Shown: positions 12,307 to 43,575 of the stretch, one piece after another
How positions within the stretch are numbered: position 1 is the stretch's first letter
How the letters are laid out: each line of letters begins with the position of its first letter
Assembly (NCBI GenBank): GCA_937873095.1
Contig: CALMVI010000072.1
Span: 1 to 47,290, forward strand
Source: an uncultured Acetobacteraceae bacterium
Lineage (GTDB): Bacteria; Pseudomonadota; Alphaproteobacteria; Acetobacterales; Acetobacteraceae
Direction of reading: 5' to 3'
Length of the DNA: 47,290 nt
Translations under genes and position numbers: made by a program
The notes under the pieces: generated by a model
What the model saw: only the letters and a program-made list of their open reading frames with translations
What the model was told of the DNA's origin: nothing
Database searches by the model: none

Positions 12307-12403
12307 GGTGCAAGCCTAGGCAGCGTTGCAGTGCGGCACAACCGGACGGCACGGGGCCGGCCGCTTCCTAGCGCGCGCCACCGGGTGCTATAGGCCGGCG
12401 CCC

Positions 12404-13546
12404 ATGGACGAACTCGCGCCGCCCCATCCAGCCCTGCTGCCCGCCGGCCTGCGCGACCTTCTGCCGCACGAGGCGCAGGCCGAAGCGGCGTCGGTCGCCG
12501 CGATCATGGCGGTGTTCGCCAGCCACGGCTACGCCCGCGTGAAGCCGCCGCTGATGGAGTTCGAGGACGGCATGCTGGCCGGCGCGGGGGCTGCCACCGC
12601 CGACCAGATCTTCCGCATCATGGACCCCGACAGCCACCGCATGATGGGCCTGCGCGCGGACATGACGCCGCAGGTGGCGCGCATTGCCGCCACCCGGCTG
12701 GCCGGCAGCCCGCGGCCGCTCCGCCTGTCCTACGCCGGCGAATGCATCCGCGTGCGCGGCCAGCGCGACGCCGACCGCCAGGTGCCGCAGGCGGGCATCG
12801 AACTGATCGGCGCCGACAGCGCCGCCGCCGACGCAGAGGCCATGCTGGTCGCCGTGGAGGCGCTGGCCGCACTCGGCCTGGCCAGACTTAGCCTGGACCT
12901 GACCCTGCCCGCGCTGACGCCCGCCCTGCTGGACGAGGCGGGCCTTGCGGGAACGCGCCGCGACGCGTTGGCGCGCGCGCTGGACCGCAAGGACGCAGCC
13001 GCCGTGGGCGAGCATGGCGGCGCGCTGGCCCCTATGCTGACCGACCTGCTGCTCGCCGCCGGCCCCGCGCCGGACGCGCTGGCCGCGCTGCGCCGCGCCA
13101 CCCTGCCCGCGCCGATGCGCGCGCTGGCCGGGCGGCTGGAGGAGGTCGCCTGCCTGCTGCGGGCCCAGGCGCCGCAGCTGCGCGTGACCATCGACCCGCT
13201 GGAGTTCCGCGGCTTCCGCTACCACACGGGCATCGCCGTCACCGTCTTCGCGCCAGGGCGGCACGAGGAGCTCGGCCGCGGCGGGCGCTACCTGTCGGGC
13301 GGCGGGGAGCCTGCGACCGGGATGACGCTGTTTGCCGACGCCGTGCTGCGCGCCGCGCCGACGCCGCCGGTGCGCCCCTGCATCCTGGTCCCGGCCGGCA
13401 CCGACCCCGCCGCGTCGCGCGCCCTGCGCCGCGAGTTTGCCACCGTGGCCGCGCTGGAACCCTGCGACGAGGAGGCCGAGGCGATGCGGCTCGGCTGCTC
13501 GCACGTGCTGCGCGACGGCGTGCCGCAGCCCTTAGGCGCCCGGTAA
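12404..13546 (+). CDS. hisZ: ATP phosphoribosyltransferase regulatory subunit
   Basis: HisZ is a catalytically dead histidyl-tRNA synthetase paralogue that activates short-form HisG in the first step of histidine synthesis. The 380-aa product has class II synthetase motifs ([42 protein letters not shown]) and [20 protein letters not shown], but lacks the anticodon-binding domain of HisS. The ATG at 12404 gives [21 protein letters not shown]. An extended-type -10 (TGCTATAGG, ending at 12394) is so close to this ATG that a leaderless message is possible. purA follows 8 bp later; hisZ-purA is a common pair in this group. Confidence 0.93.
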
Positions 13547-13554: not shown

Positions 13555-14844
13555 ATGGCGAACGTGGCGGTGATCGGGGCGCAGTGGGGCGACGAGGGCA
13601 AGGGCAAGGTCGTCGACTGGCTGGCCAGCCGCGCCGACGTGGTGGTGCGGTTCCAGGGCGGCCACAATGCCGGCCACACGCTGGTGGTGGGCAACCAGAC
13701 CTACAAGCTGAGCCTGCTGCCGTCGGGCCTGGTGCGCGGCAAGCTGGGCATCATCGGCAACGGCGTGGTGGTGGACCCCGACGCGCTGCTGGCCGAGATC
13801 GCCAGGGTGCAGGCCCAGGGGCTGACGGTGACGCCGGACACGCTGCGCATCGCCGACAACGCCACCCTGATCCTGCCGCTGCACGGCGCCATCGACCGGG
13901 CCCGCGAGGCGGCACGCGGCGCGGCCAGGATCGGCACCACCGGGCGCGGCATCGGCCCTGCCTACGAGGACAAGGTTGCCCGGCGCGCGATCCGCGCCTG
14001 CGACCTGGCCGAGCCGGACACGCTGTCCCGCAAGCTGGACGAGTTGCTGCTGCACCACAACACGCTGCTGCGGGGGCTGGGTGCGGAGACCTTCGAGAAG
14101 CAGGCGCTGCTGGACGGCCTGCTGGCGACAGCGCCCAGGCTGCTGCCGTTCGTCGAACCGGTCTGGGAGCGGCTGGACGGGCTGCGCCGCCAGGGCAGGC
14201 GCATCCTGTTCGAGGGCGCGCAGGCGGTGATGCTGGACGTGGACCACGGCACCTACCCGTTCGTGACCAGCAGCAACACGGTGGCTGCGACGGCGGCCAG
14301 CGGCGCGGGCGTCGGGCCGTCGGCCGTGGGTTTCGTGCTGGGCATCGCCAAGGCCTACACCACCCGCGTCGGGTCCGGGCCGTTCCCCACCGAGCTGACC
14401 GACGATGTCGGCCGCATGCTGGGCGAGCGCGGCCACGAGTTCGGCACGGTGACCGGCCGCCCGCGCCGCTGCGGCTGGTTCGACGCGGCGATGGTGCGCC
14501 AGGCGGTCAAGGTGGGCGGCGTGCAGGGGCTGGCGCTGACCAAGCTGGACGTGCTGGACGGCATGCAGACGCTGCGCATCTGCACGGGCTACGAGGTCGG
14601 CGGCACGCGCATCGGCCACCTGCCGGCGGCACCAGGGGCGCAGGCGGCGGCGAGGCCGGTGTACGAGGACGTCGAGGGCTGGCGCGGCTCGACGCGCGGC
14701 GCACGGTCCTGGGCGCAGTTGCCGGCGCAGGCGATCAAATACGTCCGCCGTATCGAGGAGCTCGTCGAGGCGCCGGTGACGCTGCTTTCCACCAGTCCGG
14801 AACGCGACGACACGATCATGGTGCGCGACCCGTTCCAGGATTGA
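13555..14844 (+). CDS. purA: Adenylosuccinate synthetase
   Basis: Joins IMP and aspartate with GTP, the first committed step to AMP. The 429-aa length is normal. Motifs are [17 protein letters not shown] (P-loop and catalytic Asp), [11 protein letters not shown] (catalytic His), [35 protein letters not shown] and [11 protein letters not shown]. The start [18 protein letters not shown] is certain. It shares a transcript with hisZ. Together with guaB at the left edge the window holds both branch-point enzymes from IMP, though not in one operon. Confidence 0.97.
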
Positions 14845-14912: not shown

Positions 14913-16871
14913 ATGGCGGACGAAAACGGCGTAATCGCCACCTATTACCGCATCGACCCGACGAAGCCGGCGCTGCCCCTGGTCGGCGGGCTGCGCGCCC
15001 TGCCGGTCATCGATGGCCGCGACCCTGGGCAGCCGGTGATCGCGGTCGAAACCCGTGCCGACCTGCCGCCGCGGCCGCGCATCCCGCTCGCATGCGGCGG
15101 CCCGCCGATCCCGCACACCATCCTGCCGATCGATTACGGTCCCGGCCGCGACGCCACCGGGAAGCCGGGCTGGTTCATCGTCAGCGAGGGGTGGCCGGCC
15201 GCACCCCTGCAGGTCGGACCGCAGCCCTGGCGCGAGTCCGACCTGATGAACCAGCTGCTTCTGCCGGCCGCCAAGGCGCTGGCCGACATGCAGGAGCGCG
15301 GGCTGACCCACCGGGCGCTGCATCCCGCCAACCTGTACCGGGCCAGCCCGCGCGACCCGGTGACGCTCGGACCGTTCTGGATGGCGCCGCCGAGCAGCTT
15401 GCAGCCCGCAGTGTTCGAGCCGCCCTACATGGCGCAGTGCCTGCCAAACGGCCGAGGCGACGGCAGCATCGCCGACGACGTCTATGCGCTGGGCGTCACG
15501 CTGCTGTGTTGCGCGCTTGGGCGCGTGCCGCTTGCCGAACTCGACGACCCGGGCATCCTCGCGCGCAAGCTCGAGTTCGGCAGTTTCGCGGCCCTGACCA
15601 CCGGCGCGGTCCTGACCCCGCTCATCACCGACCTGCTGCGCAGCATGCTGGCCGAAGATCCGGAGCACCGGCCTTCGCCCCGCCTGCTGCTGCGGCCCGA
15701 GCAGGCGCGCGCCAGGCGGGTCGGCGCCCGCCCGCCACGCCGGGCGGAACAGCCGCTCAACCTGGGCGGCCTGAACGTCTGGTCGTCGCGCCAGCTCGCC
15801 CAGGGGTTGAGCGTGCGTCCCGAACGCGGCTGTGCGCTGCTGAAGAGCGGTGCTGTCGAGCATTGGCTGCGGCGCTGCCTGGGTGACCCGCAGCTCGGCA
15901 TGCGGGTGGAGGAACTGACCCGCCGGCGCGACGACGAAGCCGACACGGACCGGTCGCGCTCCGAGGCGCTGCTGCTGATGCGCTGCATCGCCGCGATCGA
16001 CCCTCTGGCTCCCCTGGTCTGGCGCGGCATCGCCGTGCAGCCGGACGGGCTGGGCAGCGCGCTCGCCGGCGTGGCGCCGGACGTGGCACAACCGCTGGAG
16101 GACGTCATCGCGGCCCAGGCCGTCGGCGAGTTCTGCCGCGCGAGCCATCGCGCCCGGCAGGCGGCGGAGTTGCCGGAAGCCGAACGGCAGTGGGCGGGCT
16201 GGCTTGCCGCCCGCGGCGTCGCCGGCGGCAGCAAGCGTCTGCTCTACGGCATGAACCCGATGATGGCTTGCATGTCGCCCATCCTGGGCGGCCGCCCGGT
16301 GGTCCGCGCGGCCGAGCTGTTGCCGGTCCTGGAGGACGCCTCGGCCACTGCCGACAGGAGCCGTCCACCGATCGACCCGCACATCGCAGCTTTCCTGGCC
16401 GCACGGCTGGAACCGGCCCTGTCGAGCAACCTGCGCAAGCTTTCCAGCTTCGCCTCCCCGTCAGACCGCCTCGGCGTGCTGCGGCTGTTCGGGCGTCTGC
16501 AGGCCAGCTTCCACCCCGCACCCCTGCCAGGCCTGGCAGGATGGCTGCTGTCTTCCGGGTTCGCCCGGCTGGACGACTGGCGCAACAAGAAAACGCGTGC
16601 GACGCTGAATGACGCGTTGGACGATGCAGCCCGGCGCGGCCAGATCTCTGCCATGGCCGGGCTGGTGGACGATGAAGAGGCCAAGCAGGCCGATCGGGCA
16701 GCAATGGCGGTGGTGCGCGCCCGCGTTCGCGAACTGGAAAAGGCACTCCAGGAAGCAACGGCCGAGATGCCGAAACGGGTCGAGGCTGCACAGTCGCTCG
16801 GCCATGAGATCGTCACCGGCGCGGGGCTGATCGCCAGCCTCGGCGCCACGCTGGCGCTGGCGCTGGGCTGA
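14913..16871 (+). CDS. Pseudokinase-like protein with C-terminal membrane anchor
   Basis: A 652-aa protein. Residues about 60-270 follow a Ser/Thr protein kinase fold: a hinge-like WFIVSEGW (87-94), THRALHPANLY (132-142) in place of HRDxKPxN, DDVYALGVTLLCCALG (188-203) matching the kinase F helix, and LLRSMLAEDPEHRPSP before the end of the domain. The catalytic Asp of HRD is Ala135, the DFG site reads LGP, and no glycine loop is evident, so phosphotransfer is unlikely. Residues about 280-600 are helical with no family recognised. The last 23 residues (IVTGAGLIASLGATLALALG) form a membrane anchor after a coiled coil. It is coupled to the next membrane gene by TGATG. Role unknown; an ATP- or partner-binding scaffold is an inference. 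Confidence 0.75.
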   Translation: MADENGVIATYYRIDPTKPALPLVGGLRALPVIDGRDPGQPVIAVETRADLPPRPRIPLACGGPPIPHTILPIDYGPGRDATGKPGWFIVSEGWPAAPLQVGPQPWRESDLMNQLLLPAAKALADMQERGLTHRALHPANLYRASPRDPVTLGPFWMAPPSSLQPAVFEPPYMAQCLPNGRGDGSIADDVYALGVTLLCCALGRVPLAELDDPGILARKLEFGSFAALTTGAVLTPLITDLLRSMLAEDPEHRPSPRLLLRPEQARARRVGARPPRRAEQPLNLGGLNVWSSRQLAQGLSVRPERGCALLKSGAVEHWLRRCLGDPQLGMRVEELTRRRDDEADTDRSRSEALLLMRCIAAIDPLAPLVWRGIAVQPDGLGSALAGVAPDVAQPLEDVIAAQAVGEFCRASHRARQAAELPEAERQWAGWLAARGVAGGSKRLLYGMNPMMACMSPILGGRPVVRAAELLPVLEDASATADRSRPPIDPHIAAFLAARLEPALSSNLRKLSSFASPSDRLGVLRLFGRLQASFHPAPLPGLAGWLLSSGFARLDDWRNKKTRATLNDALDDAARRGQISAMAGLVDDEEAKQADRAAMAVVRARVRELEKALQEATAEMPKRVEAAQSLGHEIVTGAGLIASLGATLALALG

Positions 16872-17350
16872 TGGCCGAAGCGGTCCACATCGCCGGAGCG
16901 CAGCGATCGACCAACTTGGGTCGACGCGGCTCGGCACTCTGGATCCAGGGCCTGGCTTGCGGCGCCGCGCTGACCTTTGCCGCACCCACCGTGCTTCTGC
17001 TCGGCATCCTGCTTGCCCCGGCGCTGGTCTGCCTGCTGGTCCAGCCAAGGATCGAGCGCGGGTTGCTGCGCGCAGTGGCGGTGGCCTGCACCGCGTCGTC
17101 ACTGTCGCCGGTCTGGCATCTCTGGCTCGCCGGCGACCGGTTCGAGCAGGCGTTGGCCGGCCTGTCGGATCCGTTCGTCCTGCTCCTGGCCTGGGGTGCG
17201 GGAGCGAGCGCCTGGGCGCTGTGTCAGGTGATCCCGGTCGTGCTTCGCGGCAGCTGGGACATGCAGACCGCGAGCAGGGTGCGGACGATGGAGACCGAAC
17301 TCAAGACCCTGAACGAGCGATGGCTGCTCGAAGACGCATCCGAACCGTAA
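16871..17350 (+). CDS. Four-pass membrane protein coupled to the pseudokinase
   Basis: A 159-aa protein with four predicted membrane segments: two back to back in ALWIQGLACGAALTFAAPTV / LLLGILLAPALVCLLV, then LLRAVAVACTASSLSPVWHLWLA, and PFVLLLAWGAGASAWALCQVIPVVL. It ends in a cytoplasmic or periplasmic coiled coil (RVRTMETELKTLNERWLLED). The ATG overlaps the pseudokinase stop by one base (TGATG), so the two are translated together and probably act together at the inner membrane. No family is recognised. A hairpin terminator follows directly, so the operon consists of these two genes. Confidence 0.75.
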   Translation: MAEAVHIAGAQRSTNLGRRGSALWIQGLACGAALTFAAPTVLLLGILLAPALVCLLVQPRIERGLLRAVAVACTASSLSPVWHLWLAGDRFEQALAGLSDPFVLLLAWGAGASAWALCQVIPVVLRGSWDMQTASRVRTMETELKTLNERWLLEDASEP

Positions 17351-17355
17351 ACGTG

Positions 17356-17382
17356 AAAGGCCCGGACTGAGCCGGGCCTTTT
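17356..17382. terminator. Bidirectional hairpin terminator
   Basis: AAAGGCCCGG, loop ACTGAG, CCGGGCCTTTT. The stem ends in a short T-run on the plus strand and a shorter one on the minus strand. It lies between the ends of the converging membrane-protein gene and rpoH and can serve both. Confidence 0.85.
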
Positions 17383-17387
17383 CCGCT

Positions 17388-17432
17388 GCCTGCGGTCAGG
17401 CTGCCTGCCGTCAGGCTGCCTACGGTCAGGCT
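17388..17432. repeat. Three tandem 15-bp repeats over the rpoH stop codon
   Basis: On the rpoH strand the unit is CCG(T/C)AGGCAGCCTGA or a close variant. The first TGA is the rpoH stop; two more copies follow with one or two base changes. The last codons and stop of rpoH have thus been duplicated in tandem. Confidence 0.85.
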
Positions 17433-18310
17433 GCCTGCGCCATCCGGCGCTCTGTCACCTGCGTCCGCATCGCCTTTTGCAGCTTCTCGAACGCCCGAAC
17501 CTCGATCTGGCGAACGCGCTCACGCGAGATGTTGTACTGCTGCGACAGCTCCTCCAGCGTGGTCGGGTTGTCCTTGAGCCGCCGCTCGATCAGGATGTGA
17601 CGCTCCCGGTCGTTCAGCGTCTTCAGCGCACCGCCGAGCAGCGCCTTGCGGCCGGTCAGCTCCTCACGCTCGGCAAGCTCGCTCTCCTGGCTCTCGCCCT
17701 CGTCGACCAGCCAATCTTGCCACTCGCCCTCGCTGTCGGCGCGGACGGGGGCGTTCAGACTGTGGTCGGGTGCGGCCAGCCGACGGTTCATGCTGACCAC
17801 GTCCTGCTCGGGCACGCCGAGCGTTGTCGCGATCTTGGCCACATGCTCCGGCCGCAGGTCGCCGTCCTCGATCGCCTGCATCTGGCCCTTCAGCCGGCGC
17901 AGGTTGAAGAACAGCTTCTTCTGCGCCGCCGTGGTGCCCATCTTCACCAGCGACCAGCTGTGCAGGATGTACTCCTGGATGGCGGCGCGAATCCACCACA
18001 TCGCGTAGGTCGCCAGGCGGAAGCCGCGATCAGGGTCGAAGCGCTTTACGGCCTGCATCATGCCGACATTGCCCTCGCTGATCAGCTCGCCCACCGGCAG
18101 GCCGTAGCCGCGATAGCCCATGGCGATCTTGGCGACCAGGCGCAGGTGAGAGGTGACCAGCTTGTGGGCGGCCTTGTTGTCCTCGTGATCACGCCAGGCA
18201 TGGGAGAGCGACAGCTCCTCCTCGGGCGTCAGCATGGGAAACTTGCGGATCTCCTGCAGGTAGCGGGAGAGATTGCCCTCTGGGGCGACATTGACAAAGG
18301 CTGAGGCCAC
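17426..18310 (-). CDS. rpoH: RNA polymerase sigma factor RpoH (sigma-32)
   Basis: Heat-shock sigma factor, 294 aa. Region 1.2/2.1 starts [20 protein letters not shown]. Region 2 has [53 protein letters not shown]. The RpoH-specific box is [17 protein letters not shown]. Region 4.2 ends [22 protein letters not shown]. The GTG at 18310 is chosen because AAGGAG lies 7 nt upstream; the longer frame starts inside the leader. A strong sigma-70-type promoter is visible 184-212 bp upstream. A terminator and a tandem duplication of the stop region lie at its 3' end. Only one rpoH copy is in the window. Confidence 0.96.
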
Positions 18311-18317
18311 GAAACGG

Positions 18318-18323
18318 CTCCTT
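18318..18323 (-). promoter_or_regulatory. Ribosome binding site fixing the rpoH GTG start
   Basis: AAGGAG on the minus strand, 7 nt from GTG 18310. It excludes the upstream in-frame ATG at 18340. Confidence 0.75.
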
Positions 18324-18493
18324 CTGTCCGGCAACCACACCCGGTCTCTCTGCCCATTACGGCGCAGCGGGTGGAAAGGTTGCGGCTGAAAGTGTGGAGC
18401 GCGAGGACGTTACCACGCCAGCCCTGAACCCCTCGAAGGCAACCCAGGATGGGCGGTAGCCAGCCTGGCACGCCCGCCAAGCCGACCCGCAAA

Positions 18494-18573: not shown

Positions 18574-19533
18574 TTATGCGAGCGCTCTTAACAAGGCCTG
18601 AAAATCCGCGGGCGGCGGCGTCTCGAAACGCACTTCGTGACCGGTGACGGGATGGCGGAAGCCAAGGGTCGCCGCGTGCAGCGCCTGGCGCGGAAAATCC
18701 AGCAGAAGCGAGCGCTGCGGCTCGGTTACCGCACGGCTCACGGCAGGGATGCGCCGTATATAGACAGGATCGCCCACCACAGGATGCCCGGCCGAGGAGA
18801 GGTGAACGCGTATCTGATGGGTGCGCCCGGTAGCCAGCCGGCATTCGATCAGGCTGGCGGCTGCCTGATAGACGCCGAGCGTCTTGTAGCGCGTCAGCGC
18901 CGCCTTGCCGCCGCGGGTGACCAGCGCCATCCGCTTGCGGTCGCGCGGATCCCGCCCGATCGCGCCCGCGATCTCTCCTGCCGCCGGCACCGGCATGCCC
19001 CAGACCAGCGCCCTGTACACCCGCTCGATATCGCGCGCGGCGAATGCGGCGGACAGGGCGGCCAGCGCCTGCTCGGTCTTCGCCACCACCATCACGCCCG
19101 AGGTGTCGCGATCGAGCCGGTGCACGATGCCGGGCCGCCGCTCGCCGCCGATGCCGGGCAGCGCATCGCCGCAATGGGCGAGCAGCGCATTGACCAGCGT
19201 TCCGTCCTGGTTGCCCGGCGCGGGGTGCACCACCAGCCCGGCCGGCTTGTCGAGCACGATCAGCGCGCGGTCTTCGTAGAGGATGGTGAAAGGGATGTCT
19301 TGGGGTTGCGGCGTGGGCGAGACCGGGTCCGGCTGAGTCAGCGCGTAGTCGCTGCCGGCGCGGATCGGCTCGGCCGGCTGGGTCACCGGCAGGCCGTCCC
19401 GCGTGGCGTGTCCCGCCTCGATCAGGCTCTTGACGCGCGATCGCGACAGCGTGCCGCTGGCCTCGGCCAAATAGCGGTCCGCACGCTGGCCCGCCGCCTC
19501 GGGCGGCGCCGTGACCCGCAATGGCTCGATCAC
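18574..19533 (-). CDS. rluD: RluA-family 23S rRNA pseudouridine synthase (RluD-like)
   Basis: Converts uridines in large-subunit rRNA to pseudouridine. The 319-aa protein has an N-terminal S4 RNA-binding domain (RADRYLAEASGTLSRSRVKSLIEAGHATRDG). The catalytic domain carries GIVHRLDRDTSGVMVVAKT with the catalytic Asp141, and LATGRTHQIRVHLSSAGHPVVGDPVY. The start is GTG at 19533, overlapping the pyrF stop in a GTGA. The S4 domain plus RluA motif fits RluC/RluD; RluD is the usual alphaproteobacterial assignment near rpoH, so the symbol is probable rather than certain. Confidence 0.88.
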   Translation of the reverse strand: MIEPLRVTAPPEAAGQRADRYLAEASGTLSRSRVKSLIEAGHATRDGLPVTQPAEPIRAGSDYALTQPDPVSPTPQPQDIPFTILYEDRALIVLDKPAGLVVHPAPGNQDGTLVNALLAHCGDALPGIGGERRPGIVHRLDRDTSGVMVVAKTEQALAALSAAFAARDIERVYRALVWGMPVPAAGEIAGAIGRDPRDRKRMALVTRGGKAALTRYKTLGVYQAAASLIECRLATGRTHQIRVHLSSAGHPVVGDPVYIRRIPAVSRAVTEPQRSLLLDFPRQALHAATLGFRHPVTGHEVRFETPPPADFQALLRALA

Positions 19534-27899: not shown

Positions 27900-28898
27900 C
27901 TAAAGGTAGGTCTCCGCCGCCTTGTTGCGGAACGGGTTGGACAGCCGCCCTGCCACCTTGTGCCCCAGTGTGAATTTGCTGACCACGTAGCGCGGCGCGA
28001 TCTCGCCGCCGAAGCCGGTGAAGAACAACGCTCCGCCAGACGAGACCACGCCCTCGAAATCGAAGATCAGGCCGCGGGCCGCGATGTCGCGCATGGCGTC
28101 CCACAGCAGCAGGCTGACCGCGCCGTTGCCTGCGTCCCGCCGCCGCGTGCTCAGCAGGTAATACGCCGCCTGCGTGTCCCAGACGTAGAAGATGGCGGCC
28201 GCCGGCTCGCCGGACGCCGAGTCGGCGGCGATGATGCGCCCCTGCCCGCGCCGGATCGCGGCCTCGCACAGTCGGACGATCAGCGGCGCGTCGTAATGGC
28301 TGCGACGTCCCGCCGAGGCGATGTTGCGGACGTAGAAGGCGGCGAACGCCTCGATGTCGGCCAGTTCGTGCGTGCGGTGCCGTTCGCCGGCGCGGCGGAT
28401 GACGTTGCGGGTTTTGTCGCGCATGTTGCGCCACAGCAGCTCGGCCGGCTGGGGCGCCACCTCGAAGGTGAACTGCACCGAAGTGTCGTAGCCCTGCTCC
28501 TGATAGGCCAGCGTGTCTCGCGTGCCGCGATGCAGCTTCTGCCAGAAGCCGCTGCAGGCGGGAACCTGGCGCAGCAGGTCGCGCGTGATCTGGGCGCGGC
28601 GCAGCACCCGGTTGCAGGCCGCACCAGGACCGTCATCCAGGGCAGGTCCCAGGAAATGGGTCAGCGGCGGCATCCCGCACAGAAACTGACCCGCAAAGAT
28701 CCGCTCCCGGACATAGGGGAAACGCCCGACCGCCCGGCCGGACTGCTTGACCACCGCTTCGCAGTAATCGCCCCCGGTTGCCGCATCCAGCCACCAGGAC
28801 TGGTGGAAGATCGTCGGCCGCAACGGGTCGAACGGTGCTGCGGTCCGGTCGGACTGGGGCGGCACGTCCGGTGTGAGCGTGAACCCGAGTTCCACCAT
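27900..28898 (-). CDS. FemAB/GNAT-like acyltransferase of the EPS operon
   Basis: A 332-aa protein with a C-terminal GNAT-type fold like the BioF2/FemAB-related acetyltransferases of exopolysaccharide loci. The segment MRDKTRNVIRRAGERHRTHELADIEAFAAFY is followed by GRIIAADSASGEPAAAIFYVWDTQAAYYLLSTRR and NGAVSLLLWDAMRDIAARGLIFDFEGVVSSG. The last pattern (nGa...L.wdai..a...G...fDf.G) is typical of these enzymes. It may transfer an acyl or aminoacyl group to the sugar chain. The ATG at 28898 is chosen; an in-frame start at 28934 would add 12 unconserved residues. It is the last gene of the minus-strand EPS operon, 99 bp after glf, and ends at the 145-bp repeat. Confidence 0.78.
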   Translation of the reverse strand: MVELGFTLTPDVPPQSDRTAAPFDPLRPTIFHQSWWLDAATGGDYCEAVVKQSGRAVGRFPYVRERIFAGQFLCGMPPLTHFLGPALDDGPGAACNRVLRRAQITRDLLRQVPACSGFWQKLHRGTRDTLAYQEQGYDTSVQFTFEVAPQPAELLWRNMRDKTRNVIRRAGERHRTHELADIEAFAAFYVRNIASAGRRSHYDAPLIVRLCEAAIRRGQGRIIAADSASGEPAAAIFYVWDTQAAYYLLSTRRRDAGNGAVSLLLWDAMRDIAARGLIFDFEGVVSSGGALFFTGFGGEIAPRYVVSKFTLGHKVAGRLSNPFRNKAAETYL

Positions 28899-28997
28899 GG
28901 CGCGCAACGTACCCCCTCCCGGACAACCGCTCAAGCCAAGCGGGCCGGCCGCTTCTCCGGCAGCCGGCCCGTCAACGCGGCGTGGGGGTGCGGGATG

Positions 28998-30179
28998 CTA
29001 CTCGGCGGCCTGCCGCGACGCGGTGGCGGCGCCCGTGGCCAGGGGCATCAACTCGTTCTCGAACGATTTCAGCCCGGCGCCGATCGCCTGGTGCATGTCC
29101 AGGTAGCGATACGTGCCGAGCCGCCCGCCGAAGATGACGTTCGGCTCCCGCTCGGCCAGGGCCGCGTAGCCGTCGTACAGGTCGCGGTCCGCCGGCGTGT
29201 TGATCGGGTAGTAAGGCTCGTCCTCGCGCGCCGCGAAACGCGAGTATTCGCGCATGATCAGCGTGTGCTCGCGCGAGTGCTTGCGCTCGGGATGCAGGTG
29301 CTTGAACTCGTGAATGCGGGTGAAGCGCACGTCCGCATCGGGGTAGTTCACCACCGACGCGCCCTGGTAATCCTCCACCGGCGGCCGCTCGATCTCGAAA
29401 TCCAGCGTGCGCCAGCCGAGCGTGCCGAGCCGGTAGTCGAAATAGCGGTCGATGGCGCCGGTATAGATGATGACCGCGTCCGGCCGAAGCTGCGGCCGCA
29501 CGTCGAAGAAGTCGCAGTTGCACACCACCTTGATTTTCGGGTCGGCGAAGATCCGCTCGAAGATGGCGTGGTAGCCGTCCACCGGCAGGCCCTCGTAGAT
29601 GTCGTTGAAGTAGAAATCGTTGTAGTTGAAGCGCACCGGCAGCCGCTTGATGGTTTCGGCCGGCAGCAGCTTCGGATCGGTCTCCCACTGCTTGGCGGTG
29701 TAGGTCTGGATGAAGGCCTCGTAGAGGTCACGGCCGATCAGACTGATCGCCTTCTGCTCAAAATTCTGCGGATCGTCGAAACCCTCCGACGCCGCCTTGG
29801 CCTCGATGAACGCTGCGGCCTCCGACGGCTTGAGGTCGACGCCGAAGAAATTGTTCAAGGTCATCAGGTTGATCGGCATGGTGTACATCCGCCCGGCATG
29901 CCGCGTCAGCACCCGGTGGCGGTAGTTGTTGAACTGCGTGAACCGGTTGATCCACGCCCAGACATCGGTCTGCGAGGTGTGGAACAGATGCGTGCCGTAG
30001 CGGTGGTACTCGATGCCGGTCGCAGGATCGCGCTCGGAAAACGAGTTCCCGCCGAAATGGTCCCGCCGCTCCAGAACCAGCACCGGCTCGCCCAGCACCG
30101 AGGCGATGCGTTCGGCCATGACCGCGCCGAAGAAGCCGCTGCCCGCGATCACGTACTTATAATCTGCTGCACCAATCAT
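28998..30179 (-). CDS. glf: UDP-galactopyranose mutase
   Basis: Flavoenzyme that turns UDP-galactopyranose into UDP-galactofuranose, so the polymer made here probably contains galactofuranose. The 393-aa product has the FAD Rossmann motif YVIAGSGFFGAVMAERIA (GxGxxG at 13-18) with VLERRDHFGGNSF. It also has EYHRYGTHLFHTS, YTAKQWETDP, RFNYNDFYFNDIYEGLPVDGYHAIFERI and the C-terminal FGGRLGTYRYLDMHQAIGA. The ATG at 30179 overlaps the stop of the preceding gene (ATGA), so a much longer open frame upstream is not used. Identification is secure. Confidence 0.96.
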   Translation of the reverse strand: MIGAADYKYVIAGSGFFGAVMAERIASVLGEPVLVLERRDHFGGNSFSERDPATGIEYHRYGTHLFHTSQTDVWAWINRFTQFNNYRHRVLTRHAGRMYTMPINLMTLNNFFGVDLKPSEAAAFIEAKAASEGFDDPQNFEQKAISLIGRDLYEAFIQTYTAKQWETDPKLLPAETIKRLPVRFNYNDFYFNDIYEGLPVDGYHAIFERIFADPKIKVVCNCDFFDVRPQLRPDAVIIYTGAIDRYFDYRLGTLGWRTLDFEIERPPVEDYQGASVVNYPDADVRFTRIHEFKHLHPERKHSREHTLIMREYSRFAAREDEPYYPINTPADRDLYDGYAALAEREPNVIFGGRLGTYRYLDMHQAIGAGLKSFENELMPLATGAATASRQAAE

Positions 30180-31108
30180 CGTGTTGCCCTTTCGGCGGCT
30201 GTAAGCGAGGCCACGCCCTGGCCGATCGTGCGGCGGGCCTTTGTCATGAAGCTTCTGGTCAGCACCGGAAGGTACTGCCTGGCAGGCAGCCGGCGCAGCT
30301 TGCGGTGGAACAGGCTGGCAGGGTTGAGGTAGCCGGCCAGGCCGATGCGGTATTTGTGCAGGCTGTCGACGTAACGCCGCTGGTCGAGGACGGGATGCAC
30401 GAAGGCATGACCGGCCAGCAGGCCGGCATCGGCCTCCAGATAGGGCGGCCAGTGGTCGTAGGCGGAGGTGTCGCCGAACTCGCTCAGCTCGTGGCAGACG
30501 AACCCGGCCAGCGCCAGCTCGGTCGGCACGAACCCCTCGCAGAACGGCCAGGATGCCTGCGTGCCCTCCGCCAGCGCCCTGCCCTGCGACAGCCGGCGTT
30601 CGAACAGGTGGTCGAGCGCCGCGCCGGAGAACAGCGACACGCAGATCAGCTGGTGCCGCAACCGGTCCAGCGGATAGACCCCGGCGCAACTGTCGCGCCA
30701 GAACCAGTCCTGCACCGCCTCGCCCTTGGTCAGCCCGACATAATCGGCGGCAGCCGCCTCAACCTCGGCGATCAGCGAGGCGATCGGCCGGTTGATCACC
30801 ACGTCGTATTCGAGCTGGAAATAGCAGTCGTAGTCCGGGCACTGGCGGCGCAGCGCGTAGAGCGGATAGTCGCCGTTGAACCACAGCAGGTTGCCCTCGC
30901 CCGCCCGTGGCAGGCCCATCGCCAGCAGCGACTCCTCGGTCACCCGCACCACGCGGTCGTGCGGCACCGCGACCGGCCCCCGCGTCTCGTCGACCAGAAC
31001 GATCACGTCGGTGCCGCCGGACACGGCAAGCAGGCGGTCGAACTGGCGCTGCGCGAAGCCGTCCCAGAAATGCGTCCGGAACACGGTGGCGGCCTTGGAC
31101 GCGCTCAC
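30176..31108 (-). CDS. EPS-locus protein of unknown family, possible glycosyltransferase
   Basis: A 310-aa soluble protein. A Rossmann-like start (RTHFWDGFAQRQFDRLLAVSGGTDVIVLVDET) and a short acidic motif after a beta strand, YFQLEYDVVINRP (about residue 115), recall the nucleotide-sugar/metal site of GT-A enzymes, though the motif is EYD rather than DxD. Conserved-looking aromatic and acidic stretches follow (WFWRDSCAGVYPLDRL, FCEGFVPTELALAGF). Both ends overlap neighbours by 4 nt (GTGA with the GT4 stop, ATGA with glf), so it belongs to the same pathway. Glycosyltransferase is the most likely reading but rests on weak motifs. Confidence 0.6.
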   Translation of the reverse strand: MSASKAATVFRTHFWDGFAQRQFDRLLAVSGGTDVIVLVDETRGPVAVPHDRVVRVTEESLLAMGLPRAGEGNLLWFNGDYPLYALRRQCPDYDCYFQLEYDVVINRPIASLIAEVEAAAADYVGLTKGEAVQDWFWRDSCAGVYPLDRLRHQLICVSLFSGAALDHLFERRLSQGRALAEGTQASWPFCEGFVPTELALAGFVCHELSEFGDTSAYDHWPPYLEADAGLLAGHAFVHPVLDQRRYVDSLHKYRIGLAGYLNPASLFHRKLRRLPARQYLPVLTRSFMTKARRTIGQGVASLTAAERATR

Positions 31109-32301
31109 GACGCGATCTCCCTGGCGGAGGCCAACGGCACAGGTGCGGCTCGCCGGCGCGCATCGGACAGCGCCGCTTCGTACACGCCCACCGTCATCCG
31201 GGCGATCTCCCCCCAGCCAGGCAGGGTGTTTGTCAGCCGCCGCACCGCGTCGGCCTGGCGTGCGGCCATCGCGCGGTCGGCCAGGATGGCGCCCAAAGCG
31301 GCGGTCAGCGCCGGCACGTCGCCTGGCGGAAGCAGCGCGCCGTGCACCCCGTCCTCGATGGTTTCGGCGAAGCTGCCGAGGCGCGACGCGATCACCGGCC
31401 GGCCATGCGCCAGGGCCAGCGAAAGCACGCCGCTCGCCTCGATCTCGCGATACGGAAACACCGCGACCGAGCCGGGCGGGAACACGGCGGCGATCTCGTC
31501 ATCGGCGACGAAGCGCGGCTCGATCGCGACACGGCCGGCAACGCCCCGCGCTGCCGCCAGCGAACGCAGCATTGCGAGGTCCATGTAGGGCTGGCCCACG
31601 ATGCGCACGCTCGCCTGGGCCTGCAGCGCCTCCGGCAGGGCGGCGAACGCCTCGATCAGCAGGTCGGCCCCCTTGTAGGGCTTGATCTTGCCGAACAGCA
31701 CGAAGCTCAGCGTGCCCTGCATGGGGTCGGCCAGGCCCGCTGCCGCCTCGGCGAGCGGGCCGTGCGGCAGCTGGCACAGCCTGGACGCAGGGATGCCGAG
31801 TGCGGCCAGACGCTGAACGCCCTGGCGCGTATGCACGATCAGCCGGTCGCACCGGCGCAGCGATGCGGCGAAGCCAGCGCGCTGCAGGCGGGCGGTCGGG
31901 CTGCCGTTGAACGGGTCGGTGTCGTGCACCGTCAGCACCACCGGCGCGATCTCGGCAAAGCCCGGCAGCAGCGCCTGGTCCAGCCCGGGCAGCGGCAGCC
32001 ACTGGAAATGGATCACGTCGGGCCGCGAGCGGGCCAGGCGGCGTCGCAGGCGCAGCATGCTGACCGCGTGGTCCACCCCCTTGACCGCCAGCCGCGCGGG
32101 CTTCGGCAGGCGCCGCACCGCGCGCGAGCCGGCCCAGCGATAGAAGCTCGGCTCGATGGCGACCCGGCCCGCGCCGCCATCCTGCTCGGTGAGCGTCCGG
32201 CCGTGCAGCGTGACGTCCTGGCCCGCATCCGTGAGCGCGCCGGCCAGCGCCGCATCGTAGGGCAGCGTGAACAGCGAGGGATCGATCAGCGCGACGCGCA
32301 T
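31105..32301 (-). CDS. Glycosyltransferase family 4
   Basis: A 398-aa GT-B enzyme. The N-terminal half holds VALIDPSLFTLPYDAALAGAL and PDVIHFQWLPLPGLDQALL. The C-terminal GT4 domain holds SFVLFGKIKPYKGADLLIEAFAAL, VRIVGQP, EPRFVADDEIAAVFPPGSVAVFPYREIEASGVLSLALAHGRPVIAS (E-x7-E-like donor site) and GVHGALLPPGDVPAL. It is probably a retaining transferase adding one sugar on the cytoplasmic side. The ATG at 32301 shares a base with the preceding stop (TGATG); the frame upstream of it is a shadow of the GT2 gene. Sugar specificity unknown. Confidence 0.9.
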   Translation of the reverse strand: MRVALIDPSLFTLPYDAALAGALTDAGQDVTLHGRTLTEQDGGAGRVAIEPSFYRWAGSRAVRRLPKPARLAVKGVDHAVSMLRLRRRLARSRPDVIHFQWLPLPGLDQALLPGFAEIAPVVLTVHDTDPFNGSPTARLQRAGFAASLRRCDRLIVHTRQGVQRLAALGIPASRLCQLPHGPLAEAAAGLADPMQGTLSFVLFGKIKPYKGADLLIEAFAALPEALQAQASVRIVGQPYMDLAMLRSLAAARGVAGRVAIEPRFVADDEIAAVFPPGSVAVFPYREIEASGVLSLALAHGRPVIASRLGSFAETIEDGVHGALLPPGDVPALTAALGAILADRAMAARQADAVRRLTNTLPGWGEIARMTVGVYEAALSDARRRAAPVPLASAREIAS

Positions 32302-33488
32302 CAGGTCCGCACCGCGGCGCCGATCTGCACCGACACGCCGGACCGCGCCGAGGCGGGCGGGTTCCAGGTCTGGAACGTGTCGCCCCTGCAGGACCGCCAC
32401 ACGCCGAGCCCGGTCGCGATCAGCGCCGCGAACACCTCGCGCAGCCTGCCCAGCGCCCCGCGCTGCGCGGCCGCAACCAGCCAGGTGCCCGCCACGGCCA
32501 GCAGCCCCGCCGCCCCGGCAGCCCGCGCGCCGGCGGCCAGCGCGATGGCGGCAAGGGCGAACACGCCCGATGCCGCCACGAAGTAGATCGACAGCCAGCG
32601 CAGCACCTTGTGCGACATGTATTTGTAGAGGTCGACCGCGGGCAGCCGGACCAGCCGGCCCCACAGCGCGCGGTTGACGTTGAACGCCTGGCAGGCGATC
32701 CGCACCTTGCGCCTGAACTCCTCGGCAGGACGCGACACCGAACTCTCGTAGGCGACAGCGTCGGCCACCCGCACGATCCTGGCCCCGTCGCACAGCACCG
32801 ACAGCGAGACGAACATGTCGTCGATCAGATGCGGCGGCGGCGGGCGGTGCAGCGCCCGGCGCAGCGCGAAGATCGAACCATCGGCACCCATCACGGACCC
32901 GGTCGCACTCTCCAGCGACTTTATGTGCTCCTCCAGCCGCCAGTACAGCGAACCGGTGGCGGCCGTGCTGGTCGGGTCGTCCGGATCCACGTAGCGCAGA
33001 TGGCCGCAGGCGCAGCCGACCGAGGGGTCGGCGAAGGGCGCGACCAGCCGCTCGATCGCGTCCTCGGCGAAGGTGACGTTGGCGTCGGTGAACACCACGA
33101 TCTCGGCATCGGTCAGGGCGACCAGGCGGTTCATGCCGGCGGTCTTGCCGTGCCGGTCGGCCGACACGACCAGCCGGATGCGCTCGCCGTAGCCCGCCAG
33201 GATCTGCGCGGTCGCATCCGTCGCCGCGTCGACATACACCAGGATCTCCAGGCCAGGCAGCCTCGCCCGGCAGGCGAGCAGGTTCTCCACCCGGGCTGCG
33301 ATGACCGACGCCTCGTTATAGGCGCAGACGCAGACCGCCAGCCGCGAGGGGCTGCGCCCGCCGGCCAAGGGGCGCGGGCGCAGCCGGGCGAGCGCCCGCA
33401 AGCTCAAAGGCAAGGTGGTGAACGGATGGGCTGCCAGAAACAGGGCGAGCGCCGCCAGAACGGCGCACGCCAAGGCCGGGTCCGTCAT
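32301..33488 (-). CDS. Membrane-bound glycosyltransferase family 2
   Basis: A 395-aa protein with an N-terminal membrane segment (ACAVLAALALFLAAHPF). The GT2 catalytic domain holds LAVCVCAYNEASVIAARVENLL, VYVDAATDATAQIL, VVFTDANVTF (DxD-like), VMGADGSIFALRR, DDMFVSLSVLCDGARI, and KVRIACQAFNVNRALW as a Q-x-x-x-W-like acceptor motif. At least three C-terminal membrane helices follow. This layout resembles ExoO/WcaA-like and processive enzymes such as hyaluronan synthase, but the operon's lipid-linked starter enzyme favours a single-sugar role. It starts 7 bp after the co-polymerase gene. Confidence 0.88.
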   Translation of the reverse strand: MTDPALACAVLAALALFLAAHPFTTLPLSLRALARLRPRPLAGGRSPSRLAVCVCAYNEASVIAARVENLLACRARLPGLEILVYVDAATDATAQILAGYGERIRLVVSADRHGKTAGMNRLVALTDAEIVVFTDANVTFAEDAIERLVAPFADPSVGCACGHLRYVDPDDPTSTAATGSLYWRLEEHIKSLESATGSVMGADGSIFALRRALHRPPPPHLIDDMFVSLSVLCDGARIVRVADAVAYESSVSRPAEEFRRKVRIACQAFNVNRALWGRLVRLPAVDLYKYMSHKVLRWLSIYFVAASGVFALAAIALAAGARAAGAAGLLAVAGTWLVAAAQRGALGRLREVFAALIATGLGVWRSCRGDTFQTWNPPASARSGVSVQIGAAVRT

Positions 33489-33495
33489 GCGGCCC

Positions 33496-35598
33496 TCACG
33501 ACACGAGCAGGATGGCGGCGAGCGGACTGCGCGAAAGCCCCCGCAGGCGTGCGACCAGGGACGCGCCCTCGGCGGCGTCCTTCAGCGCGGCCTCCTCGAT
33601 CACGAGCACGGTCACGTCGGCGCTGCGCACCACGGTGACCGCGTCCGCCTGCGCCGCCTCGGGTGCGCCGAGCACGATGTGGTCGTACTCGCCGCGTGCC
33701 TCTGCCAGCAGGTTTTCCAGGCCGACCGGCTGCGGTGCGGCGGTACCGCCCTCCCTGCGCCCGAGCAGGAGCTGCAGCCCGGGCACCCGGTCGGCGGCCA
33801 GGCAGTCCTGCCAGTCGGCGGCACCCGTCATCACCTCGGCCACCCGCCCGCCAGGGGCGCCCAGCGCGCGGCCGATGCCTCCGTTGCCGTTCGGGTCGCA
33901 ATCGACCAGCAGCACGCGCTGCCCGTCGCGAGCCACGGCGCGCGCATAGGCGGCAGCGACCGAAGAGGCCGACGCGCCCGCCTGGCCGCCGACGAACCCC
34001 ACCACCCGGGGCGGCGTGCGCGACAGCTGGTTCAGCGCCGCGCGCGCCAGGCGCAGCGCGTCGTTCTCCTCGCCGTCCCGCACCACCCGGTCCGCCAGCC
34101 CCGATTTGGCGGCGCGCGCGCGCAGGCTCGCCGCGACCGCCAGTCCAGCCTCCTGCGCGAAGGCAGCAGCACCGGAGCCGACCGACCGGCGCGTGAAGGC
34201 AAGCACCGCCATGCAGGCCAGCAGCGCGCCGCCGGCCCCTCCCGCGCCCGCGGCCATCTTGGTGTTCGGCGCGCTGGGAAAGCCCGGCGGCACCGCGTTG
34301 CTCAGCACCCGGACATCGGGCGTCTCGGTGCCAGTGGGCTGGTTGACGGTCTGCTGCGCCCGCTCGAGCAGGGTGCGGTACAGGTCGCGCCGGGTCGCCG
34401 CGTCCTGCTGCAGCTGGTCGAGCTCGGCCTGCGTGTTCTGCGCCGTGACGCCGGCCTGGCCCGCTGCCTTGAGCTGGGCCTGAACGTCGGCCTCGTGCGC
34501 GCGGGCCACGCGCAGCTGGGTGGCGAGCGACGCCACGATCCGGTGCGTCTCGCTGACGATCTCGCGCCGCGTGGCCGAAAGGTCGGCTTGGGCGCTGCGC
34601 AGCGCCGGGTAGGCCGGGCCGTAATGCTGCGACAGGTCGGCGACCTTTGCCGCGGCCTGCGACTCCTCGCCGCGCAGCCGCGAGATGGTCTCCGACCCGA
34701 GCACGCTGGCCAGGGCGTCGGACGACCCGCCGGACGCCATCGCCTGGGCGCGTTCGTAATTGGCTTCGATCTGGCTGCGGTCGAGAGTGGCCCTGGACGC
34801 GGCAGTGGCCAGCTCCTGCAGCTGCTGCTGGCCGACGCTGCCGGCCGGCAGGCCGACCTGGCCCGACTGCCGGCGCAGGTCGCGCATCTGCTGCTCGATG
34901 CGCTCGATGTCGGCGCGCACCTGGTCGATGCGCTGGTTCATCGCCGCGTTGGCGCCCTGGTTGGCCGCCACGCGCCGTTGCGCCCGCCCCTCGATGTAGT
35001 CGGCGATCAGCGTGTTGACGAACCGCGCGGCCAGCGCCGGGTCGTGCGCGCTGAACGCGATGCCGATCACCAGGCTGCGGTTGTCCTGGCTGATGACCAG
35101 GTTGTGCATGACTGCGCCGATCAGCCCGTCATTGCTGGGCCCGGTGGTGGGCGTGCCGGGGGCGGCGCCGCTGGCGGGCAGGAAGCCCTGGAACCAGCCG
35201 CGAACCCTGTCCAGCAGCGTCGGCGGACGCAGGGCGGCGTTGAATTCGGGGTTGCGCTCGAGATGCAGCTCGCTGGTCACGCCCTCGACCAGCTGGCGGC
35301 CGTACAGGGCCTGCACCTCGGTGTGCACCAGCGGCATCGGGTCGGGCGCGTTGTCGTCCTTCAGCGCGCCCTGCAGCTCCGGGATGGCGATGCGGTCGCC
35401 CTCCACCGCCACCGCGGCACTGGCGGTGTAGGATTTGGGCAGGGCGCGGGTGTACATGTAGGCGCCGGCGGCACCCAGCAGCGCGCACAGCCCGATCGCC
35501 ACCGCGTAGCGCCGCAGCCGCGACACCAGCAGCATGATCGGCAGCGCCGAGCCGGACGGAACGGCCACCGCCGGGGCGGGCTGGACCAGGCTATCCAC
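33496..35598 (-). CDS. Polysaccharide co-polymerase (Wzz/GumC type) with degenerate BY-kinase domain
   Basis: A 700-aa inner-membrane protein setting chain length and linking to export. It has membrane segments at about 31-50 (YAVAIGLCALLGAAGAYMY) and 446-468, and between them the Wzz domain with long coiled coils (about 210-400). A C-terminal CpsD/ParA-like domain spans about 500-700. There the P-loop site reads GGQAGASASSVAAAYA (537-552), lacking the Walker A Lys. Walker A' is kept (VLLVDCDPN, 562-570). The Walker B position reads IVLGAPEA with Gly for Asp. No C-terminal tyrosine cluster is present. ATP hydrolysis and autophosphorylation are therefore unlikely. An intact AAA ATPase is encoded directly upstream. 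Confidence 0.88.
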   Translation of the reverse strand: MDSLVQPAPAVAVPSGSALPIMLLVSRLRRYAVAIGLCALLGAAGAYMYTRALPKSYTASAAVAVEGDRIAIPELQGALKDDNAPDPMPLVHTEVQALYGRQLVEGVTSELHLERNPEFNAALRPPTLLDRVRGWFQGFLPASGAAPGTPTTGPSNDGLIGAVMHNLVISQDNRSLVIGIAFSAHDPALAARFVNTLIADYIEGRAQRRVAANQGANAAMNQRIDQVRADIERIEQQMRDLRRQSGQVGLPAGSVGQQQLQELATAASRATLDRSQIEANYERAQAMASGGSSDALASVLGSETISRLRGEESQAAAKVADLSQHYGPAYPALRSAQADLSATRREIVSETHRIVASLATQLRVARAHEADVQAQLKAAGQAGVTAQNTQAELDQLQQDAATRRDLYRTLLERAQQTVNQPTGTETPDVRVLSNAVPPGFPSAPNTKMAAGAGGAGGALLACMAVLAFTRRSVGSGAAAFAQEAGLAVAASLRARAAKSGLADRVVRDGEENDALRLARAALNQLSRTPPRVVGFVGGQAGASASSVAAAYARAVARDGQRVLLVDCDPNGNGGIGRALGAPGGRVAEVMTGAADWQDCLAADRVPGLQLLLGRREGGTAAPQPVGLENLLAEARGEYDHIVLGAPEAAQADAVTVVRSADVTVLVIEEAALKDAAEGASLVARLRGLSRSPLAAILLVS

Positions 35599-35640
35599 CG
35601 GGGCGGCCTTCCGGTGCGCGCGCGTGCGGGCCCACGCTGG

Positions 35641-36936
35641 TCACGAACCGGACGCGACGGGGCGCAGCAGCGGCGGCGCGCCGTTGGCGGCGGCCTGCCG
35701 CTCCCCGGCGAGGTCGGCGCGCGCAGCCAGCAGCTGCACGTAGTAGACGAGCCCGCGGTCGCGGAACTGCACCATGCCGCCCTCGCCTTCGGGCTGGATC
35801 AGGATGCCGGTGTCCATCAGCCGGTTCCACACCGACTCCGGCAGCCGCCTGCCGCCGACCACGACGTGCGATGGCGTGCGGGCGACGGCCATGCGCCCCC
35901 ACTGGTCCTGCTCGGCGTTGACCAGGCGGAACAGCAGGGCGGACATGCCCGGCTCGGATCCGGCCCCGACCAGGGAGGCATAGGTGCTGACGACCGCGGC
36001 GCTCGTCTCGTCGAGCAGCCGGTTCACGGCCGCGACCAGGTCGACGTCCTGCACCTGCTCGTCGCCACGGCGCAGCGCCGCCTGGGTGATCCGCAGCCCC
36101 AGCAGCTGCGCCATGTAGGGCATGCCGCGGGCGACGTTGACGACCAGCCGCACCGCCGCGTCGGTGAACGAGATGCCGGCCTGCTGGCCGCCCTTGGTCA
36201 GCATGCCCGCGATCTCGTCGTCGCGCAGCAGCGGCAGGTGGATGGGCACGATGTTGCGCTGGATGGAAGGGTGCTGTCCGATGATCTGCTCCAGCGTGTC
36301 TGATACCCCAACGACCATGAAATAGAGCCTGATCCCGCGATCCGACAGAAGCTTGATGGTGTCGGCGAGTCGCGTCCGCGTTTCGAGGTCGGTCACCCGG
36401 TCGAACTCGTCGATCACGAACACGACGAAGGGGCAGTTCAGGCTGGCCGGGATCGCCGCGATGTCGGCCGGCCGCAGGCTGCGCTGCGGCAGCATGGCCT
36501 CGCAGCCCTCGCCGTCGGCATCGGGCAGCTCCACCGACAGGAGCGAGGGCGGCAGGTCCCTGACCAGCGAGCGGGCGATCGTGTCGAACGTGCTTTCGGC
36601 TTCGCAGGCGCAGCGCGCCACGATGGCGCCGCGGCGGCGCAGGGCCTCGATCGTCAGGTTCGACAACGACGTCTTGCCGCGCCCCCGCTCGGAGTACAGC
36701 ACCACATGCGCCGTCTCGTCGAGGACGGCGTCGAGGATGCGCGTGAGCTCGGCCTGCCGCCCGACCAGCGACTTGCGGCCGGAGCGCGGACGGGTGGGCG
36801 TGAACACGTCGGTCGGCAGGGCCGACTGGGCGGGTGCGGCAGGCCGTGCTGCGACCTCGGCCACAGGTGCCGCGACGGAAGCCTGGTTCGCCCATCCGAG
36901 CCGGCGCGCCAGCCGGGTCAGAAAGCTCCTAAACAC
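35641..36936 (-). CDS. AAA/STAND-like ATPase in the EPS operon
   Basis: A 431-aa ATPase. The N-terminus is basic and amphipathic (MFRSFLTRLARRLGW), possibly membrane-touching. The AAA domain follows SLVGRQAELTRILDAVLDE. Walker A is YSERGRGKTSLSN (GRGKTS 85-90), Walker B is VVFVIDEFDR (171-180), then YFMVVGVSDTLEQIIGQHPSIQRN (sensor-1 region). The C-terminal winged-helix-like part runs from about 300 to 420. It resembles Orc1/Cdc6- and ExeA-like ATPases rather than known EPS enzymes. It sits between the sugar transferase (12 bp) and the co-polymerase (42 bp), so it is co-expressed with them. A role in regulating or powering polymer assembly is inferred from position. Confidence 0.85.
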   Translation of the reverse strand: MFRSFLTRLARRLGWANQASVAAPVAEVAARPAAPAQSALPTDVFTPTRPRSGRKSLVGRQAELTRILDAVLDETAHVVLYSERGRGKTSLSNLTIEALRRRGAIVARCACEAESTFDTIARSLVRDLPPSLLSVELPDADGEGCEAMLPQRSLRPADIAAIPASLNCPFVVFVIDEFDRVTDLETRTRLADTIKLLSDRGIRLYFMVVGVSDTLEQIIGQHPSIQRNIVPIHLPLLRDDEIAGMLTKGGQQAGISFTDAAVRLVVNVARGMPYMAQLLGLRITQAALRRGDEQVQDVDLVAAVNRLLDETSAAVVSTYASLVGAGSEPGMSALLFRLVNAEQDQWGRMAVARTPSHVVVGGRRLPESVWNRLMDTGILIQPEGEGGMVQFRDRGLVYYVQLLAARADLAGERQAAANGAPPLLRPVASGS

Positions 36937-36948
36937 GATCTGTCTGCA

Positions 36949-38427: not shown

Positions 38428-38536
38428 CAACCGGCTCCGGTGCTCACGAACATGTCCAGTCAGGAGCGACCGACCGCCACCCGATGGCGGCTGCGACGAT
38501 CACCACGGCCAACACAAGAAACAGCATCGCATATTT

Positions 38537-38564
38537 TGCTGCACCGCAGCAGTCACTTTTTTTT
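38537..38564 (+). promoter_or_regulatory. Palindrome followed by T8 in the divergent EPS regulatory region
   Basis: TGCTGC-ACC-GCAGCA (38537-38551), a perfect inverted repeat, then GTCAC and eight T residues (38557-38564). The 221-bp gap 38428-38648 separates the divergent EPS transcription units and is notably AT-rich for this genome. The structure could be an operator, or an early terminator/attenuator ahead of the plus-strand glycosyltransferases. No convincing promoter hexamers were found. Confidence 0.45.
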
Positions 38565-43572: not shown

Positions 43573-43575
43573 GCA

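Follow-up and report, generated by a model that had tools for sequence, protein, structure and literature searches.

The EssB/YukC protein of type VIIb secretion is described in PMC12599244 as a membrane pseudokinase whose kinase motifs are degraded and which recruits without catalysis. According to PMC9600267, YukC contacts a polytopic membrane partner, YueB, apparently via membrane regions. PMC12599244, from which we took the definition of a bacterial pseudokinase used here (a kinase fold, loss of at least one of three catalytic residues and no shown activity), also names the families ActPs1-3, GLW, CP1, DYD and DLHK, which share a Hanks-type fold and have lost catalytic residues; several of its families carry a membrane segment after the kinase domain, and the catalytic loop of DLHK contains an Arg. 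Here we describe two adjoining genes, P1 and P2, in a 47,290-nucleotide stretch (the window) of contig CALMVI010000072.1, assembly GCA_937873095.1, from an uncultured Acetobacteraceae bacterium. P1, like the named families, has a predicted Hanks-type fold without its catalytic residues. With P2 as its membrane partner, it represents a genuine pseudokinase family that is widespread and that the literature searched does not describe.

Kinase fold, catalytic residues and hydrophobic tail of P1

P1, a predicted tail-anchored pseudokinase of 652 residues, is encoded by an open reading frame at 14913..16871 on the forward strand. In an AlphaFold2 model built with 26 sequences (mean predicted local distance difference test score, pLDDT, 87.8; predicted template modeling score, pTM, 0.84), residues 5-267 (14925..15713) were predicted to form a complete bilobal kinase fold, in agreement with the kinase-like fold proposed in a preliminary description made from the letters alone. 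Structure comparison of this part by VIA-align gave Z scores of 21-22 and a root-mean-square deviation of about 3 angstrom with WNK, ASK1, PknA/PknB, KSR1 and the TYK2 JH2 pseudokinase, and the best Foldseek match of the model was PknB. The only Pfam match of P1 was Pkinase, below threshold (residues 116-260; 20.7 bits against a cut-off of 31.7); at E <= 0.1 the same domain was found in 62 of the 70 P1 homologues, the lowest E-value being 7.5e-12.

The three kinase motifs of P1 were placed by profile alignment to MAPKAPK2. The catalytic loop (canonical HRDxxxxN) reads THRALHPAN in the window (residues 132-140, 15306..15332), with the HRD Asp changed to Ala, as the preliminary description had read it, and the loop Asn kept. 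The DFG place is LGPFW, in which GPFW occupies residues 153-156 (15369..15380) and Pro154 replaces the DFG Asp, and a Glu stands at the position of the VAIK Lys. Window P1 thus has none of the residues expected of an active Hanks-type Ser/Thr kinase (HRD Asp, VAIK Lys, DFG Asp), unlike the PknB/PknA-type kinases whose fold it shares, and it agrees with the general definition of a bacterial pseudokinase given above, the fold being predicted.

We then counted these residues in P1 homologues from a sample of 385 alphaproteobacterial genomes (the class sample; cut-offs E <= 1e-20 for P1 and E <= 1e-3 for P2) and from Acetobacteraceae. The alignments contained 26 (A1) and 70 (A3) P1 sequences and 31 (A2) and 69 (A4) P2 sequences, and sequences gapped at a column were left out of that column's total. 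The HRD Asp was kept in only 1 of 135 class homologues (L095:8726-10771, HGDIRPTN) and in 0/34 from Acetobacteraceae; the class residues at this position were mainly A (64), S (19), G (19) and N (13). At the VAIK Lys position, 125 of 134 class sequences had V, I or L and 2 had K, which was absent from all 31 Acetobacteraceae sequences. The loop Asn was retained in 127/135 class and 34/34 Acetobacteraceae sequences, and an Arg stood at the HRDxK position in 110 of the 135 class sequences. At the DFG Asp position the class homologues had E (69) or D (48), an acidic residue in 117 of 136, whereas Acetobacteraceae never had one (0/34; A 10, C 9, S 4, P 3, others). The earlier claim that DFG is missing therefore holds for the window and for Acetobacteraceae but not for the class at large. 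Likewise, the glycine loop, which had been called absent, is represented in Acetobacteraceae by a G-rich remnant placed by eye, in which G26 is at least 90% conserved among 26 sequences. An active kinase with displaced catalytic residues found no support in the class and Acetobacteraceae alignments, in keeping with the dead kinase first proposed. As judged from these alignments, P1 is a conserved pseudokinase family.

The kinase part is followed by a 312-residue region (residues 276-587, 15738..16673) that is helical by prediction. This stretch had been called unrecognised and is still so: Pfam gave no convincing family in 35 P1 homologues (best E 0.042), and a PDB sequence search gave no credible match. 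Low E-values in the latter search came only from designed armadillo repeats that aligned to the final 22 positions of the profile, and no stretch of these alignments passed alone. Structure comparison with whole P1 barely probed the region, because the kinase part fills the match list. A profile search with this region yielded one modest match, to the C-terminal region of a kinase outside the class, described below. The last helix (residues 588-651, 16674..16865) ends in a hydrophobic stretch (residues 633-651). In 69 of 70 homologues this tail was the hydropathy maximum of the whole protein, with peak Kyte-Doolittle values of 1.40 to 3.11 (median 2.26); internal peaks reached up to 2.24. The proposed C-terminal membrane anchor is well in line with these values.

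Neither window P1 nor window P2 matched a named family over cut-off in Pfam or NCBIfam. The NCBIfam matches of P1 (P0001), MAD6 (41.8 bits against 460) and LanL (29.6 against 650), covered the kinase part only; at E <= 1e-3 the two models matched 56 and 59 of the 70 homologues, with lowest E-values of 1e-14 and 8e-15, cut-offs being judged for window P1 and not for each homologue. The PADLOC kinases MkoA, PD-T4-6 and mad6 matched P1 at 30.8-35.4 bits, with no cut-off given, again in the kinase part only. A role in anti-phage defence was rejected on this coverage of the NCBIfam and PADLOC matches, and identity with the class IV lanthionine synthetase LanL was rejected for want of a full-length match over the curated cut-off. 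P1-P2 also fitted none of the families named in the accessible part of PMC12599244, compared by description and without their sequence logos. GLW in place of HRD was absent among the 30 commonest class triplets listed (HRA, HRS, HRG, HGA and others), and DLHK kinases, according to the same part of that source, keep the HRD Asp and have no transmembrane region, whereas P1 has lost the Asp and has a hydrophobic tail. No paper on the pair came up in literature searches, most subscription papers lying outside their coverage. The suggestion that the pair is undescribed has thus held up within these sources.

The membrane protein P2 and its coupling to P1

P2 (159 residues, 16871..17350, forward strand) is a predicted small membrane protein with a helical C-terminal tail. 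The TGATG overlap of the two reading frames (16869..16873) was confirmed in the sequence: the P1 stop TGA and the P2 start ATG have one base in common. The P2 model, built with 31 sequences, was all-helical (pLDDT 85.3; pTM 0.62), with helices at residues 19-36, 38-57 (broken), 63-86 and 101-151. P2 had been described as a four-pass protein. Its membrane-like character was upheld, but a simple count of hydrophobic segments in 69 homologues gave four in only 17, compared with three in 31, two in 12, five in 5 and one in 4. Pfam gave no match to window P2; across the 69 homologues no Pfam family occurred in more than three and no NCBIfam family in more than one. A fold search against the PDB gave no structure at E <= 0.001. 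Window P2 was recovered by a profile built from class homologues alone (E 2.3e-25).

P1 was found in 131 of the 385 class genomes, from 70 families, and P2 in 135. All 131 genomes with P1 also matched P2. The four genomes with P2 only were G203 (E 1e-5), G442 (E 8e-4), and G230 and G244, both with the match at a contig end. Among 139 P1 copies examined, P2 lay directly after P1 in 126, 5 were at a contig edge and 8 were unpaired; the median gap between the matched regions was 14.5 bases. These copies came from 126 of the 131 genomes (G000, G420, G456, G575 and G577 left out), and shorter first versions of loci that were later taken longer were dropped from the count. The first class-wide scoring considered at most three P1 candidates per genome, so that second copies may be undercounted. 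Four of the unpaired copies were second copies (in G333, G433, G514 and G294), and the other four had P2 elsewhere in the genome (G229, G368, G416 and G500), these split genomes retaining both genes. Tandem P1 duplicates, each with its own P2, occurred at L083, L132 and L135.

Named genome records gave the same picture. They contained 38 P1 loci, mostly labelled Acetobacteraceae, and the P1 stop codon lay inside the record in 34, where a P2-type frame started -7 to +24 bases from that stop in 32. With the P2 profile made from class homologues only, P2 was detected immediately downstream of P1 in 33 of these 34 loci, and the contig of the remaining one ends 190 bases past the stop; direct comparison with P2 (P0002) alone matched 26 loci. 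In a sample of 200 Acetobacteraceae genomes, 86 had P1 at E <= 1e-20; a looser tally of 107 includes weak kinase matches, and we used 86. In a phylum sample of 55 genomes, 3 of 14 alphaproteobacteria matched P1 in full and 1 of 41 genomes outside the class matched it in part. The pair was also present in 40 genomes of no more than 2.15 Mb. Because the pair spans the class, the reading that it is a local operon of the source genome was rejected. Gene coupling is near-obligate in the genomes sampled; the constant pairing expected from the preliminary description was therefore largely borne out, with rare exceptions in the four second P1 copies, the extra P2 matches of G213 and G345, and the four P2-only genomes. 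The predicted fold, the class-wide loss of catalytic residues, the hydrophobic tail and this coupling are what sequence and prediction establish.

The second P1 copies without P2 (L125:8576-11146, L126, L127 and L128) adjoin a conserved glyoxalase-family gene in all four genomes. Those of G333 and G433, which belong to one genus, lie near genes for a type VI secretion system (VasE/TssK and IcmF-related proteins, by Pfam in L125 and by tblastn in L126). A type VI secretion role was rejected since the related copies of G514 and G294 had no recognisable type VI gene next to them. P2-like genes without an adjoining P1 were seen at L122, L123, L124 and L140 (three in G213, one in G345).

Gene neighbourhood and a relative outside the class

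In the window, P1 is preceded on the same strand by a HisZ-like gene of the tRNA-synt_His family (12326-13546) and by purA (13555..14844; Adenylsucc_synt, 566.5 bits). Downstream, rpoH (17426..18340, with Sigma-70 domains) and an RluD-like pseudouridine synthase gene (18574-19533) lie on the reverse strand, convergent with the pair. A hairpin at 17355..17382 follows P2 on the forward strand; the stretch 17348-17395 folds at -25.7 kcal/mol (z -4.2), and a pattern scan for terminators in the window did not return this hairpin. The preliminary description had assigned the pair its own terminator. The hairpin is real and is a probable terminator, but it sits between the convergent P2 and rpoH and may therefore be shared by both, acting bidirectionally. 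Farther on, frames at 27900-47273 read like an exopolysaccharide cluster (by reading only), with resemblance to UDP-galactopyranose mutase, glycosyltransferases, Wzc and Wza. The gene caller picked wrong strands in GC-rich DNA, the window included; its lists were used for neighbours only, and gene names resting on them alone were read by eye.

The recurring neighbours in the loci examined, where no profile search was aimed at type VII genes, were hisZ, purA, rpoH, rluD, serA and serC; serC was named after existing annotation, Pfam giving no serC match. The gene immediately before P1 was purA in 74 of the 134 class copies and in 9 of the 27 from named records, and rpoH was convergent within 2 kb in 56/127 and 12/24, respectively. 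A replicon of Azospirillum thermophilum shares this gene order, and its annotation calls P1 a serine/threonine protein kinase and P2 a hypothetical protein; in A. ramasamyi the pair occurs in a different setting. Of five Azospirillum plasmid records that match P1, two carry the serine/threonine protein kinase label and three leave P1 unannotated.

Outside the class, locus L224 encodes an 879-residue Ser/Thr kinase (L224:7491-10127; Pkinase, 124.8 bits) with intact motifs, namely VxxK (ILKFY at the VAIK place), HRDIKPGN and DFG. This kinase aligned to positions 57-453 of the P1 profile. The profile of P1 region 276-587 alone aligned to its residues 375-619 (E 2.3e-4, probability 44%), a modest signal yet one independent of the kinase part. 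By eye, the L224 kinase also has hydrophobic segments near its C-terminus, like P1. The P2 profile had no match in 19.5 kb around it. On one strand of L224:6123-14934 we saw genes with kinase, PP2C, FHA, radical-SAM (Fer4_12), AAA and FGE-sulfatase domains; among these, the radical-SAM gene and the ATPase gene are reminiscent of the operon given for a Pseudomonas aeruginosa DLHK pseudokinase in PMC12599244. Because the L224 kinase combines intact motifs with part of the helical region, the P1 family plausibly arose from an active kinase and kept the non-catalytic parts. As judged from this single relative, the ancestor of P1 may have been an active kinase that belonged to a phospho-signalling cluster.

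A candidate membrane scaffold and other possible roles

The most likely mechanism, to which we give about an even chance, is that P1-P2 is a non-catalytic, tail-anchored scaffold at the membrane. P1 and P2 would form one membrane module: the C-terminal tail would anchor P1, whose kinase-like head and helical region would lie in the cytoplasm, and P2 would be its membrane partner and base. The head would no longer phosphorylate and would be a platform for docking or switching, recruiting a client to the membrane or holding it there, comparable to EssB/YukC in type VII secretion, for which non-catalytic recruitment by a pseudokinase with degraded motifs is described, as proposed here for P1. The two differ in architecture: in YukC the membrane segment is followed by an extracellular C-terminal domain, whereas in P1 the hydrophobic tail is the end of the protein and the helical region precedes it. 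We infer the physical complex, its orientation, the scaffold mechanism and the existence of a client. Several findings weigh against this reading. Coupling of genes points to a functional link and does not show a physical complex. G213 and G345 each had four P2 matches and one P1, and of the six extra P2 places four were examined, none of which had an adjoining P1; with the four second P1 copies that lack P2, this means that each protein may sometimes work alone. In addition, since the loop Asn and the acidic DFG residue are mostly kept in the class, nucleotide binding or an unusual transferase activity, like those of SelO or SidJ, is conceivable there.

As to the process served, flagellated cells are the best lead. 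FliG was found in 228 of the 385 class genomes, namely in 121 of 131 with P1 and in 107 of 254 without it (Fisher p 5e-24), and within Acetobacteraceae in 80 of 86 genomes with P1 and 77 of 114 without it (p 9e-6); neither p value is corrected for ancestry. Among P1 genomes, FliG was present in 39 of 40 of no more than 2.15 Mb (the sole exception is 64% complete), in 18 of 21 up to 3.2 Mb and in 64 of 70 larger ones. A search with 14 flagellar proteins, which could miss genes not represented among them, placed flagellar genes beside P1 only in G331 and G229. In G331 (2.0 Mb), two tandem P1-P2 pairs are followed on the same strand by flhA and motA (FHIPEP and MotA_ExbB by Pfam) and a sigma-54 regulator (L132:3741-13401); this was the only genome returned in draws from its own family and its order. 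A third pair of G331 (L133) lies after purA, about 5 kb from more flagellar genes. In G229, flgI, a rod-binding (flgJ-like) gene and flgK (by Pfam) precede P1 on its own strand, and the one gene between these and P1 reads as flgL, without a Pfam match. P1-P2 may on these grounds be a flagellar accessory, acting in assembly, motor or placement in many, though not all, flagellated members of the class, a role that we hold possible but doubtful. FliG is missing from ten P1 genomes of the class sample, among them all three from family f81 (98-100% complete), and from 6 of the 86 in Acetobacteraceae, and the 107 class genomes with FliG but without P1 speak against it from the other side. Two flagellar settings in about 60 relocated copies are close to chance by a rough estimate (not computed), and sigma-54 promoter scores of at least 10 upstream of P1 (6/136) were barely above those of shuffles (2/136). 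The broader proposal, in which a dead kinase and its membrane partner form an ancient complex that serves the flagellum in many alphaproteobacterial branches, appears unlikely to us, and a pseudokinase-based flagellar accessory has no precedent in the literature as far as it was covered.

The position after purA, often with hisZ, serA and serC also preceding P1, is consistent with a different role, in which P1-P2 would sense a metabolite or nucleotide state tied to its hisZ-purA neighbours and signal at the membrane; the loop Asn and the acidic DFG residue kept by most class homologues would suit such sensing. We regard it as improbable, because the position may be merely an ancestral gene order, 60 of 134 class copies do not adjoin purA, and Acetobacteraceae have lost the acidic residue yet retain the pair. 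P1 might instead be an unrecognised enzyme of AMPylation, glutamylation or another transfer, to which P2 would present the substrate at the membrane. New activities are reported for SidJ and SelO, and arginine-based nucleotide binding is predicted for DLHK kinases, in PMC12599244; the complete bilobal fold predicted for P1, its conserved loop Asn and the Arg at the HRDxK position would fit an activity of this kind. The VAIK Lys is gone nearly everywhere, and Acetobacteraceae have also lost the DFG Asp, which makes an enzyme very unlikely.

The serine/threonine kinase label carried by P1 in Azospirillum is very likely wrong as to activity. P1-P2 offers a defined partner, an active-looking relative and a graded loss of active-site residues between lineages. 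Because the pair occurs in 70 families and in small genomes, and is kept when its genes are split, it is a good test case.

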